Assembly (NCBI GenBank): GCA_001803045.1
Contig: MHAR01000006.1
Location: 77,740-141,739 of the forward strand
Reading direction: 5' to 3'
Source: Ignavibacteria bacterium RIFOXYB12_FULL_35_14
GTDB taxonomy: Bacteria > Bacteroidota > Ignavibacteria > Ignavibacteriales > Ignavibacteriaceae
Length of the DNA stretch: 64,000 nucleotides
The position numbers were made by a program, and so were the translations under genes. Under the pieces are notes generated by a model, which saw nothing but the letters and a program-made list of their open reading frames with translations, did not search any database and was not told the origin of the DNA. Below, piece after piece: positions 13,279 through 64,000 of the stretch (position 1 is its first letter; every line of letters starts with the position of its first letter).

Positions 13279-15357
13279 ATGCCAAAACCCAACAAGCTAA
13301 TTAATGAACAAAGCCCTTACTTGCTTCAGCACGCTTATAATCCTGTTGATTGGTATCCGTGGAATGAAGACGCGTTTGAAAAAGCAAGAATAGAAAATAA
13401 ACCTATCTTTCTTTCGATTGGATATTCAACATGTCATTGGTGTCACGTGATGGAAAAAGAGTCCTTTGAAGATGAAGAAGTAGCAAGATTGATGAACGAA
13501 GCATTTGTTTCGATTAAGGTTGATCGAGAAGAACGCCCGGATATAGATGGCATCTACATGACTGTCTGCCAAATGCTTACAGGCAGCGGCGGTTGGCCTT
13601 TAACCATAGTTATGACACCGGATAAAAAACCATTTTTTGCAGGAACATATTTTCCAAAGCTAAGTCGTTATGGAAGAGCCGGAATGATGGAACTGATTCC
13701 GAAGCTAACTGAACTTTGGAAATCTAAGTATGATGATATAGTAAAATCTGCAGAAGAAATTGCTCATGCTCTGATTAGCTCATCCAAATTTTCCGGAGAT
13801 GAAATTCTGTTTTCGGAAATTCTTCATCAAGCTTTTAATGACTTATCAAGAAGATTCGATCCTGAAAAAGGCGGATTTGGTAAATCACCAAAATTCCCCA
13901 CACCGCATAATTTGACTTTTCTTTTAAGGTATTGGAAAAAAAATAATAACGAACAGGCTCTGTTTATGGTTGAAAAGACTTTACAAGAAATGAGATTGGG
14001 TGGAATTTATGATCATGTTGGTTATGGATTTCATAGATACTCTACTGATTCGAATTGGCTGGTTCCGCACTTTGAAAAAATGCTTTACGATCAAGCACTT
14101 CTCGCAATAGCCTTTACTGAAGCATATCAATCAACAAAAAAAGAATTGTACAAAAACACAGCTAAAGAAATTTTGGAATACGTTCGCCGGGACATGAGAT
14201 CAAAAAAAGGTAGTTTTTATTCTGCCGAAGATGCCGACAGTGAAGGCGAGGAAGGAAAATTTTATTTGTGGACAGTTGATGAAGTGAGAGGCATTCTCAA
14301 GGATGATGCGGATTTGTTCCTGGAAATTTTTAATTGTGAATCAGAAGGAAATTGGATTGATCCGATGCATGGAGGAAAAGTGGCGACAAATATTTTACAT
14401 CTACAAACAACATTTGATGAAAGTCGCTCAAAGAAAAACTTAAATGCCGGAGCACTTGAAATTAAAATTGCACTCGCCCAGAAGCAATTATTTGAAGCAC
14501 GCGAAAATAGAATTCATCCGCACAAAGACGATAAAATTTTAGCTGATTGGAACTCTTTGATGATATCTGCATTTGCAAAAGCCGCTCAAGTATTCGATGA
14601 AATAAAATATGTCGAAATTGCGGAATCAGCGGTTAAGTTCATCCTAAATGATATGACCCTTCCAAATGGTAGACTTTTGCATCGTTATCGAAATGGAAAA
14701 GTTGATGTTGCAGGTAATCTTGATGATTATGCTTTTCTAATCGCTGCTCTGCTTGATTTGTATGAAACTACATTCTCAGTTGAATATTTGAGCGAAGCAT
14801 TAGAGTTTCAAAATCATTTGATAAAATATTTTTGGGATGAAAAAGATGGAGCTTTTTTCTTTACTGCCGCTGACAGCGAAAAATTATTAATTCGCCAAAA
14901 AGTAGTTTATGATGGAGCAATTCCTTCCGGTAATTCAATAGCACTTCTGAACTTAATTCGTCTTTATAGGTTTACTGGAAAAATTGAGTTTGAAGACAAA
15001 GCTTCTCAAATGATTAAAACATTTTCACAGACAATTAAAACATCTCCTCCGGCGTATACACAATTTCTTTCCGGACTCGATTTTTATGTAGGTCCTTCCA
15101 TAGAAATTCTCTTGACGGGAAACGCCGAAGGTAAAATCATACAATATTTGAAAATATTGAGAGATGCTTTCATTCCTAACAAAGTTGTTCTCTATAAAAA
15201 AGATGGAACGGAGGATTCTCTCTCAAAAGTCGCTGGATTTACCGAAGCATATTCACTAATTGATGGAAACGCCGCAGTTTATGTATGTGAAAATTTCAGC
15301 TGCAAGCTGCCTGTTACTTCTGAAAAGGATTTACGGGATATACTATCGACCCAGTAA
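13279..15357 (+). CDS. YyaL-type protein: thioredoxin-fold domain plus (alpha/alpha)6 barrel
   Basis: This 692-residue protein belongs to the DUF255 (YyaL/SPATA20) family. Residues 1-165 are the thioredoxin-like domain with [20 protein letters not shown], a C52-H-W-C55 motif in [16 protein letters not shown], and [10 protein letters not shown]. The rest is an N-acylglucosamine-epimerase-like toroid of helical pairs ([41 protein letters not shown]). The length matches the family. The biochemical role is not settled; the CxxC motif suggests a redox or thiol function. It diverges from the SIMPL gene and has no operon partner. Confidence 0.85.
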
Positions 15358-15458
15358 TTTTTTTTACAGAAAATAAAAACAAAAAATATTTGTTTTATTT
15401 ATTCGTTAAAACGTAAATTACACCCGAAAATAATTCCAGCTAAGAAAATTCATTCAAA

Positions 15459-15950
15459 ATGCAAGATAACAAACTAATAAAAGCTCTTGTTCTTAATGCT
15501 CAGCTCGGAAATAATTCGGCATTTGAACAGCTGTACCAAATCACCATCGACCCTATTTATGCATTAATACTTCGCTTAACAGGTGACCCATCATCTGCTG
15601 AAATACTTACAAAAAAAACTTATGTGGATGCATGGCAAAAAATTTCTCAGAAAGATGAATTTGCCTCGATTCTTGGCTGGTTCAAAAAAAATGCAATCGG
15701 AACTGTATTGGCTGAAAAAAGTGAAGAAAAAAAATCAACCGGAGCTATGGATGAAAAATTTTTCCAGGCCAATCCTCTCGAAAGGTACATTCAGGATTTA
15801 GAGTTTCGAAATAAATTAATTTACGTTTTACATGACATCGAGAATTTTTCGTTTGAAGAAATTTCTGAATTGACCGGAATTTCTAATGATGAAATAAAAA
15901 CATTACTTGTAAACACTCGAGAAAACCTAATTAGCCTTACAGAAGAATGA
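15459..15950 (+). CDS. ECF-like sigma factor, divergent
   Basis: The product has 163 residues. The region 2 helix is recognisable (NSAFEQLYQITIDPIYALIL, then AEILTKKTYVDAWQKI), and region 4 at the C-terminus has a helix-turn-helix (FSFEEISELTGISNDEIKTL). Several core positions are unusual: KKTYVDAW stands where most ECF factors have QETFLRAW, and the -10 reading part is short. The ATGA overlap with the next gene, which carries a zinc-finger anti-sigma motif, is the typical arrangement for such pairs. It probably directs RNA polymerase to a stress or envelope regulon. The targets are unknown. Confidence 0.75.
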   Translation: MQDNKLIKALVLNAQLGNNSAFEQLYQITIDPIYALILRLTGDPSSAEILTKKTYVDAWQKISQKDEFASILGWFKKNAIGTVLAEKSEEKKSTGAMDEKFFQANPLERYIQDLEFRNKLIYVLHDIENFSFEEISELTGISNDEIKTLLVNTRENLISLTEE

Positions 15951-61823: not shown

Positions 61824-61978
61824 TTTTTAGGGTGGACAGAAATGTCTGGCTTTAATGCCGGTATTTAATGTTTTTTTTGGTAAAACATTTTTCTAATGAT
61901 CAATCATCCTGCCGTTTAATTATATTCATCAAACCCATATTGCTTTTCCAAATATTTCTTCCTAAGTTTTTTACAGAG

Positions 61979-62028
61979 AAGTAGTTAAATACTGCATCCA
62001 GCATAAATTGTCTTCCTGCTAACTACTT
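61979..62028 (+). promoter_or_regulatory. Leader hairpin before the kinase cluster
   Basis: AAGTAGTTA (61979-61987) and TAACTACTT (62020-62028) form a 9-bp perfect stem with a 32-base loop, ending 31 bases before the first minigene's ATG. It may be part of the leader RNA of the kinase cluster. No T-tract follows. Confidence 0.4.
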
Positions 62029-62059
62029 ATCTAACTAATAATTAAGAGTAGGGAGAGCT

Positions 62060-62182
62060 ATGATCGGGAACAAAATTTCTCACTACATAATCCTCGACAA
62101 GCTTGGCGAAGGCGGACCTGCCTGCCACGATTCATCGATGGTCCTCCGAAGCCCACCTTATTTTACAGGAGGAATAAAATGA
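62060..62182 (+). CDS. Minigene 1: truncated Ser/Thr kinase N-terminus
   Basis: This is a 40-codon frame with GGGAGAG before the ATG. Residues 1-19 (MIGNKISHYIILDKLGEGG) match the N-terminus of the kinase at 62277 up to the glycine loop. The sequence then leaves the kinase and runs through repeat-like DNA (GGACCTGCCTGCC, and a loose palindrome around CGATTCATCGATGG) to a stop at 62180-62182. A GGAGG lies just before the end, and the stop overlaps the next ATG as ATGA. It could be a translated leader peptide or the remnant of a duplicated kinase gene. Confidence 0.6.
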   Translation: MIGNKISHYIILDKLGEGGPACHDSSMVLRSPPYFTGGIK

Positions 62183-62280
62183 TTAGTCAAACAATCTCTC
62201 ATTACAGAATCATAGAAAAACTCGGCGAAGGCGGACGTGTCCGCCGAAACACTCCTTCTCTTCTAGGAGAATTGAAATGA
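62179..62280 (+). CDS. Minigene 2: truncated Ser/Thr kinase N-terminus
   Basis: This is a 33-codon frame, MISQTISHYRIIEKLGEGG followed by RVRRNTPSLLGELK. The first 19 residues match the kinase at 62277 in all but two or so positions, closer than minigene 1. Directly at the glycine loop codons lies a perfect palindrome, GGCGGAC-gt-GTCCGCC (62230-62245). The frame starts and ends with ATGA overlaps, and AGGAGA precedes the next ATG. The same two explanations apply as for minigene 1. Confidence 0.6.
   Translation: MISQTISHYRIIEKLGEGGRVRRNTPSLLGELK
62230..62245. repeat. Palindrome at the kinase-homology junction
   Basis: GGCGGAC-gt-GTCCGCC is a perfect inverted repeat. Its left half coincides with the GGC GGA codons of the kinase glycine loop (GEGG). 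Similarity to the kinase gene stops here. Related palindromes occur at 5229-5243 and 26847-26885. Confidence 0.75.
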
Positions 62281-64000
62281 TAAGCCAGGTAATTTCACAT
62301 TACAGAATTATAGAAAAACTCGGCGAAGGCGGAATGGGGATTATTTATAAAGCCGAGGATGTAAAACTCAAAAGAATTGTAGCACTCAAAGTCCTTCCAG
62401 AATCATTCACACGAGATGAAGAATCAAGACGAAGATTTACTCTTGAAGCACAAGCCGCATCTTCACTTCAACATAATAATATCTGCACGATACATGAGAT
62501 AGATGAAACAGAAAACGGGCAGTTTTTCATTGCAATGGATTATTATGAAGGTGAGACATTAAAAAATAAGCTCAGCAAAGGGCTATTGAGTTTAGATGAA
62601 ATCATATATATAACAACACAGGTAGCTGAAGGGTTACGCAATGCACATGAAAGAGGTATTATTCACAGAGATATAAAACCGCCTAACATTTTCATCACAA
62701 AAGAAGGCATAGTAAAAATACTTGATTTTGGATTAGCGAAAAAAGTAGACACGACCCAGTTTACAGGAAAAGGTTCAAAGTTTGGTACAACAAATTATAT
62801 GTCACCCGAACAGATAAAGGGAGAGAAAGTAGACTACAGAACAGATATATGGTCATTGGGAGTTCTGCTATATGAAATGCTCACTGGCAAGCCACCATTT
62901 CATGCAGATTATGAACAAACAATTGTCTATCTAATTCTCAACCAAGAGCCGGAAGACGTAAGAGATTATAGACAAGATGTACCGGAAAAGCTGCTGAATA
63001 TTCTTGAAAAATCAATGGCAAAGTATATAAATAATAGATACGATGACTTAGCAGCTATGTTGGAAGATTTGGGAACAGTTACAACTAAAGGTGAAATTGA
63101 AGACTCCGAATTTGAACTTCCTACTCCATTAGCATCTAATTCAATTGCAGTATTGCCCTTCGTAAATTTGAGTACAGATCCCGAACAAGAACTATTTTGT
63201 GATGGCTTAACAGAAGAACTTATCAGCACTCTATCCCGTATAAGAGAATTAAAAGTAGTGGCGCGAACAACTGCATATGCCTTCAAAGGAGGAAGCTACG
63301 ATGTTCGTAATGTAGGCAGAAAATTAGATGTAAGAACTGTGCTTGAAGGAAGTGTGAGAAAATCGGATGGTAGACTGAGGATTACAGCTCAGCTAATAAA
63401 TGTTTTAGATGGCTTTCACTTGTGGTCTGAACGCTACGACCGCGAATTAAAAGACGTATTTGATCTGCAGGAAGAAATCTCTCTCAAAATCGTAGATGTA
63501 CTAAAAATTAAGCTGCTTGAAAATGAGAAAGAGAAATTAATTAAACGATATACGGACAATTTAGAAGCGTATAATCTTTATCTGCAAGGAATGGTCTTTT
63601 TCAATAACCTTAATTTAAGGGTAGTAAGTAATTGTATTGAATACTTTAATAAAGCACTCGAAAAAGATCCCAACTATGCGCTTGCCTACTATGGTCTTGG
63701 AGGAATCTATTTTGCTTTAATGTATTTCGGAGCAAAGAGTACCAAGGAAGCACTGCCATACATGAAGAAATTCAATAAGAAAGTATTGGAGATTGATGAA
63801 AGTCTGTGGGGAGGATATCATCTTCTGGCCCTTCAAAAAGCTTGTTTTGAATTTAAACATGATGCATCGTCTTCTTACTACCGACGCGCTCTGGAATTAA
63901 ACCCAAATGATACTCTTACTCAGATAAATTATGGTATGCATCATATATCGGTGGGGAATTTCGATGCGGCAAGAAAACTAACAGAGAGAGCGCTAATGAT
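62277..64000 (+). CDS. Ser/Thr protein kinase with TolB-like/FlgO domain and TPRs (partial, runs off window)
   Basis: 574 codons are open to the window edge with no stop. Residues 9-265 are an eukaryote-type kinase: glycine loop GEGGMG (16-21), Lys38 in VALKV, H130-R-D132 in IIHRDIKPPN with Asn137, D150-F-G, and S-P-E at 176-178. Residues about 288-412 resemble the TolB-like/FlgO domain often joined to kinases and cyclases (SIAVLPFVNLSTDPEQELFC, DGLTEELISTLSRI, GSVRKSDGRLRITAQLINVL, HLWSERYDRELKDVF). TPR repeats follow (IEYFNKALEKDPNYALAYYG). No membrane helix is present in the visible part. It should phosphorylate proteins on Ser/Thr; partners are unknown. Two truncated copies of its 5' end precede it. 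Confidence 0.9.
   Translation, partial: MISQVISHYRIIEKLGEGGMGIIYKAEDVKLKRIVALKVLPESFTRDEESRRRFTLEAQAASSLQHNNICTIHEIDETENGQFFIAMDYYEGETLKNKLSKGLLSLDEIIYITTQVAEGLRNAHERGIIHRDIKPPNIFITKEGIVKILDFGLAKKVDTTQFTGKGSKFGTTNYMSPEQIKGEKVDYRTDIWSLGVLLYEMLTGKPPFHADYEQTIVYLILNQEPEDVRDYRQDVPEKLLNILEKSMAKYINNRYDDLAAMLEDLGTVTTKGEIEDSEFELPTPLASNSIAVLPFVNLSTDPEQELFCDGLTEELISTLSRIRELKVVARTTAYAFKGGSYDVRNVGRKLDVRTVLEGSVRKSDGRLRITAQLINVLDGFHLWSERYDRELKDVFDLQEEISLKIVDVLKIKLLENEKEKLIKRYTDNLEAYNLYLQGMVFFNNLNLRVVSNCIEYFNKALEKDPNYALAYYGLGGIYFALMYFGAKSTKEALPYMKKFNKKVLEIDESLWGGYHLLALQKACFEFKHDASSSYYRRALELNPNDTLTQINYGMHHISVGNFDAARKLTERALM

Follow-up and report, generated by a model that had tools for sequence, protein, structure and literature searches.

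Results

A kinase start present three times in tandem

At the end of the window (the whole 64,000-nt stretch of DNA analyzed), a gene for a serine/threonine kinase with TPR repeats is preceded by two short open reading frames, minigenes 1 and 2, each of which begins with a copy of the kinase start (Table 1). A preliminary description of this DNA had proposed that three related kinase-like starts lie in tandem, that the minigenes leave the kinase sequence at one codon, that stop and next start overlap as TGA/ATG, and that each frame has a ribosome site of its own; our analysis bears out all four points. The direct repeat is a 67-nt family with three copies in the window; tail and start together form a 95-nt unit, repeated there at 80% identity; and the 12-mer GGCGAAGGCGGA has three occurrences in the whole 4.1-Mb genome, all at the three starts of the window (chance expectation 0.08 in the window, with one mismatch allowed). 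Both minigenes depart from the kinase sequence directly after codon 19, at the same glycine-loop codon, and over codons 1-19 minigene 2 differs from the kinase at seven codons, with six of the seven differences synonymous. Directly after the shared codons comes a palindrome, perfect in minigene 2 (GGCGGACgtGTCCGCC), a feature absent from the preliminary description. The layout is that of a coupled gene pair, with each minigene stop on the next start and with plausible ribosome sites on the cistrons: the predicted anti-Shine-Dalgarno duplex energies of the three sites (Table 1) are to be read against a random-site mean of -2.3 kcal/mol. A Pfam search of the minigenes gave no match.

Table 1. 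Features of the minigene-kinase locus (window positions).
Feature	Positions	Strand	Details
5' leader	61937..62059	+	common to three other genome loci; inverted repeat AGTAGTTA ... TAACTACT
Shine-Dalgarno AGGGAG, minigene 1	62050..62055	+	predicted anti-Shine-Dalgarno duplex -8.9 kcal/mol
Minigene 1	62060..62182	+	40 codons/aa, MIGNKISHYIILDKLGEGGPACHDSSMVLRSPPYFTGGIK; codons 1-19 copy the kinase start; N-terminal start MIGNKISHYIILDKLGEGG
Glycine-loop codons, then imperfect palindromic stretch	62105..62153	+	GGCGAAGGCGGACCTGCC ... GGTCCTCCGAAGCC; from sequence and predicted fold
Shine-Dalgarno AGGAGG, minigene 2	62167..62172	+	predicted anti-Shine-Dalgarno duplex -10.3 kcal/mol
ATGA overlap	62179..62182	+	minigene 1 stop / minigene 2 start
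Minigene 2	62179..62280	+	33 codons/aa, MISQTISHYRIIEKLGEGGRVRRNTPSLLGELK; codons 1-19 copy the kinase start; N-terminal start MISQTISHYRIIEKLGEGG
Perfect palindrome inside minigene 2	62230..62245	+	GGCGGACGTGTCCGCC; same kind in family relatives
Shine-Dalgarno AGGAG, kinase	62265..62269	+	predicted anti-Shine-Dalgarno duplex -7.3 kcal/mol
ATGA overlap	62277..62280	+	minigene 2 stop / kinase start
Serine/threonine kinase with TPR repeats (Pkinase-TPR)	62277..64000	+	740 aa, extends past window end; N-terminal start MISQVISHYRIIEKLGEGG

Several simple explanations were discarded. The minigene tails are not kinase C-termini, as they show no resemblance to intact kinase ends when compared by eye; the array is not an assembly artefact, as cassettes of diverged sequence recur in at least 14 genomes (see below); a hairpin hiding the kinase Shine-Dalgarno sequence is absent from the predicted folds; and ribosomal bypassing from a GGA codon to the next GGA was set aside, the kinase having its own start and Shine-Dalgarno sequence.

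The kinase stop overlaps the start of a gene for a GAF/sigma-54 activator. The closest named relative found, Ignavibacteriales bacterium UBA6490, has the same kinase-activator pair without minigenes, and a scan of genome contigs gave one orthologous kinase locus without minigenes (L043).

Related leaders and starts elsewhere in the source genome

The leader upstream of minigene 1 has counterparts at the kinase pair of contig C62 and at hybrid sensor genes on contigs C71 and C45 (86-89% identity over 140-180 nt). The C62 pair consists of two full-length kinases in tandem, themselves ATGA-coupled. Leader and start of minigene 1 match those of the first C62 kinase with 86-87% identity over ~165-180 nt, and the homology ends at the glycine loop; to judge from this match, minigene 1 is the start of a C62-type kinase minus its body. 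One of two options in the preliminary description was that two kinase genes had collapsed at the codons of the glycine loop. That proposal is partly right: the C62 match does stop at the glycine loop, and the minigene starts across relatives are mostly not nearest to their own kinase. The check proposed there, for similar arrays before other kinases of this genome, was negative, sequence searches of the whole genome having found no further minigenes.

The shared region (window 61937-62085) comprises the leader with its inverted repeat and the first codons (MIGTKIS), and is common to kinases and hybrid two-component sensors (L011, L045, L046). Since one leader with one set of first codons is found on both kinds of gene, 5' ends seem to have been exchanged between unrelated signaling genes in the source genome. 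A gene for a Y1/IS200-like transposase (Y1_Tnp; L011:596-1069, minus strand) adjoins the C62 tandem kinase pair and is a candidate for the RAYT/IS200-type transposase that goes with REP elements.

A family of cassettes before kinase genes

Searches of 146 relatives with blastn gave matches, spread over several genera of the family, that extend across a minigene and its kinase start. The matches define a cassette with a constant plan, namely a kinase start as far as GEGG, a GC-rich palindrome, a tail of ~25 nt and then the kinase ATG, and with a constant coding content, namely a start as far as LGEGG (or GGGG), [P/L]VRRS encoded by the palindrome GGCGGACCTGTCCGCCG[A/T]AGC, ~8 more codons and the next start. 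About 26 such cassettes are known from the family, where at least 14 of 80 genomes carry one. A degenerate DNA pattern for the cassette matches 14 of the 80; it has no match in other families of the order, and in a phylum-wide sample of 396 genomes it has only three matches outside the family, all at the mismatch limit and none like a kinase start. About 22 of the 72 kinase starts examined are preceded by a start of their own type in diverged form, mostly at -95 to -98. In a second class of cassette, another palindrome (GTCCGTCTCGTTCCGCAAAGCGGAACGGCTGAGACCTCGTC, with CGTC at its end) sits at that codon; these cassettes, too, end in ATGA or TTGA. Predicted duplexes of minigene Shine-Dalgarno sequences across the family have a median of -5.6, vs. 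a random median of -2.4. As a point against dependence on the minigene, every kinase has a good Shine-Dalgarno sequence of its own.

The left arm of the palindrome, GCGAAGGCGGA, is identical to the glycine-loop codons. At the kinase L093, which lacks a minigene, the palindrome stands 44 nt upstream of the ATG. In genome G021, the units are near-identical and in tandem.

An identical 60-nt palindromic insertion occurs, in frame, in minigenes before two kinase paralogues in two species (L055 ~15320-15500 and L057 ~2060-2240; L066, L082), which suggests exchange of whole leader cassettes. Two kinases of such arrays have large internal deletions that leave 69 and 104 aa (L053:2452-2661 and L055:5218-5532), signs of kinase birth and death.

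Retention of the reading frame

A kinase start that reads ATGAT supplies a TGA automatically in one of three frames, and the null expectation for frame retention was accordingly set at one third. Tails were measured from just after the last glycine-loop codon up to the following ATG, in 25 cassettes found by DNA pattern with frame ignored. The tail is in frame and ends on the next ATG in 18 of the 25 (P 9e-5); with a G021 copy found by eye added, the count is 19 of 26 (P 4e-5, by a simple null that ignores kinship among cassettes that are not independent); and with near-duplicate tails removed it is 16 of 21 (P 7e-5). In-frame tails have lengths of 38, 41, 44, 62 and 74 nt, differing in threes. 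Seven of the 26 tails are in other frames, and three of the 26 cassettes stop 8-14 nt short of the ATG.

Stops are depleted in the same frame. Whole tails contain 7 stops in the minigene frame vs. 21 and 35 in the other two frames, and the sequence beyond the hairpin contains 7 vs. 21 and 26 (shuffle P 6e-4). Palindromic insertions within minigenes are 12, 21, 30, 33 and 60 nt long, all multiples of three. In the G021 tandem array, the kinase-adjacent copy, found by eye, is intact and ends in ATGA despite a 21-nt insertion; the outer copies have lost start or frame. Pooled over genomes (hairpin-found copies plus G021), 20 of 21 adjacent copies are intact, vs. one of four non-adjacent copies (Fisher P 0.007). 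The lone adjacent copy scored as broken, in G048, has lost the kinase-like frame; a different open reading frame there, begun by an ATG of its own, crosses the palindrome in that same tail frame and reaches the ATGA.

A plain pseudogene would show a random frame and accumulating stops, and the minigenes show neither, though some copies are broken. The frame bias, the stop depletion, the in-frame insertions and the intactness of adjacent copies favor a translated frame that terminates at the start of the kinase. The preliminary description's reading of ongoing translation thus gains support from tail frame, stops and insertions, and is weakened by relatives in which the copies are absent or broken.

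What is conserved and what varies

Among orthologous kinases that are 82-94% identical, the cassette may be present, absent or altered. Cassettes thus come and go, and, by this comparison, the cassette is dispensable on the time scale of 82-94% kinase identity. Relatives without the overlaps, or with frameshifted minigenes, had been put forward as the mark of simple decay. Such relatives exist in part, some without a cassette and some with a broken one, and the overall pattern is one neither of plain decay nor of a leader that never varies.

No sequence is common to the tail peptides. The amino acids encoded by codons 1-19 are as conserved as those of kinases (pN 0.107 and pS 0.62 vs. own kinase; pN 0.137 and pS 0.633 between kinases), with a pN/pS of 0.17 and saturated synonymous sites; the G021/G060 orthologue pair is too similar to inform selection tests. 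The downstream kinase is usually not the closest relative of the minigene start. Such conservation is compatible both with selection and with starts being recaptured from other kinases; coupling does not require it, and its source may be repeated recapture. Frame and overlap, rather than the tail peptide, seem to be what is kept.

Discussion

We lean, with modest confidence, toward an account in which minigenes arise when glycine-loop codons recombine with REP-like palindromes, and are kept for as long as their open reading frame passes ribosomes to the kinase. According to this account, the glycine-loop codons GGC GAA GGC GGA of kinases in arrays share their sequence with one arm of a REP-like palindrome found ~40 nt upstream of a kinase ATG, and slippage between the two, or recombination through this short homology, would have either of two outcomes: duplication of the unit of palindrome, tail, Shine-Dalgarno sequence and kinase start, or removal of an upstream kinase body, with its start joined to the next kinase. 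L093 would represent the precursor state expected for such an origin. As to function, which we infer from frame retention, the mini-cistron would load ribosomes on its own Shine-Dalgarno sequence, and these would read through the palindrome, stop at the TGA that overlaps the next ATG and re-initiate there, so that translation of the kinase would stay coupled to upstream translation as in the intact C62 pair. The most economical benefit would be that ribosomes keep flowing into the downstream kinase once nothing but the start of the upstream kinase is left. The preliminary description had posed collapsed kinase genes and translated leaders as alternatives; both appear partly right, the evidence pointing to a mixture.

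The broader proposition, that in one family a gene's own initiation region plus a palindrome has repeatedly been copied before kinases, where it loads ribosomes as a mini-cistron and is under selection for the coupling frame, we put forward more tentatively, as plausible and somewhat short of probable. On the same tentative footing, the coupling reading would imply that a genome makes new translational couplers from existing gene starts.

It is possible, if on the whole unlikely, that the minigenes are short-lived by-products: where kinase arrays recombine at REP-like palindromes, neutral start fragments would be left behind and decay, and ATGAT would supply their overlapping TGA automatically. 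The automatic TGA is real, though the one-third null allows for it; broken copies exist (the G021 outer copies and the kinase-like frame of G048), some orthologues have no cassette, the arrays also contain kinases cut down to 69-104 aa, and a minigene's own kinase is often not its closest relative. Decay of neutral fragments does not, however, predict the frame bias, the depletion of stops or the insertions in multiples of three, nor that adjacent copies should be intact more often than non-adjacent ones.

Reading of the minigene might instead matter through RNA structure, as in attenuation, with a hairpin formed by the palindrome and with the position of the ribosome on the minigene altering access to the kinase start; for example, the right arm GTCCGCC might pair with the kinase's own GGCGGA. 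A perfect hairpin in minigene 2 and in several relatives, and the presence of two unrelated palindrome types at the same place, speak for such a leader, but left-arm changes (GGCAGA, GGGGGG), read by eye, have no right-arm compensation, predicted accessibility of the kinase Shine-Dalgarno sequence is alike with and without a cassette (0.49 and 0.44), and an Rfam search at the locus gave no match. We regard both this regulation and its specific pairing as quite improbable. It is more improbable still that the short peptides act themselves, for example as decoys of the kinase N-terminus: the amino acids of the first 19 codons are conserved as in kinases, but the tail sequences are not, some starts are interrupted by insertions of 12-60 nt or replaced altogether, and 19 residues lack any kinase fold.

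The leader peptides and small upstream open reading frames of bacterial operons are short translated frames directly before a gene. The minigenes, with their predicted translation, resemble them in size and place, and differ in that their sequence derives from the downstream gene and carries a palindrome within the frame. The overlapping C62 kinases have the same leader, the same start and ATGA coupling between members, and differ in being full-length, whereas only starts remain in the window. Termination-reinitiation is well documented at -4 and -1 overlaps, with strict coupling reported in 13 of 14 tested pairs and loss of coupling at intergenic distances of ~20 nt (Huber et al., 2019, PMC6728339; 2023, PMC10666635). 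Those ATGA/TAATG pairs share with the minigenes the co-directional overlap of -4 nt; their upstream cistron is a full gene, whereas here its place is taken by 33-40 codons copied from the start of the gene downstream. The view of the minigenes as cistrons that couple a gene to upstream translation and are made from that gene's start is partly supported. If it is true, duplication of a start at a short repeat, with retention when the frame couples, would be a simple route to new upstream open reading frames and overlaps; 30-40 codon frames before kinases would be neither noise nor kinases; and the cassettes would provide a natural series of frames and distances for tests of termination-reinitiation.

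GTAG- and CGTC-tagged REPs and Rickettsia palindromic elements are short GC-rich palindromes that sometimes lie in frame inside open reading frames, and CGTC repeats have been reported from Chlorobi and Bacteroidetes (Di Nocera et al., 2013, PMC3733652). The cassette palindromes are likewise short, GC-rich and sometimes within open reading frames; they end in GTAG or GAAG in class 1 and in CGTC in class 2, and the window copies end in GAAA and GAAG. They differ from true REPs, which are high-copy and mostly extragenic, in numbering about one to five per genome, mostly at kinase starts. A genome-wide high-copy REP was rejected, the palindrome being rare outside kinase starts in the genomes tested, where dispersed single copies do exist: it occurs at low copy between genes and once inside a gene. 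The latter copy, GAAGGTGGACCTGTCCGCCATAG, lies in frame in a methyltransferase-like gene (SDKEGGPVRHSDNEGGFDIVIGNPPY; L079, G050:C58:20095), and a related palindrome, GAAGGAGGACCCGTCCTCCGTAG, forms an intergenic tandem array (L091, G070:C22:13432-13574).
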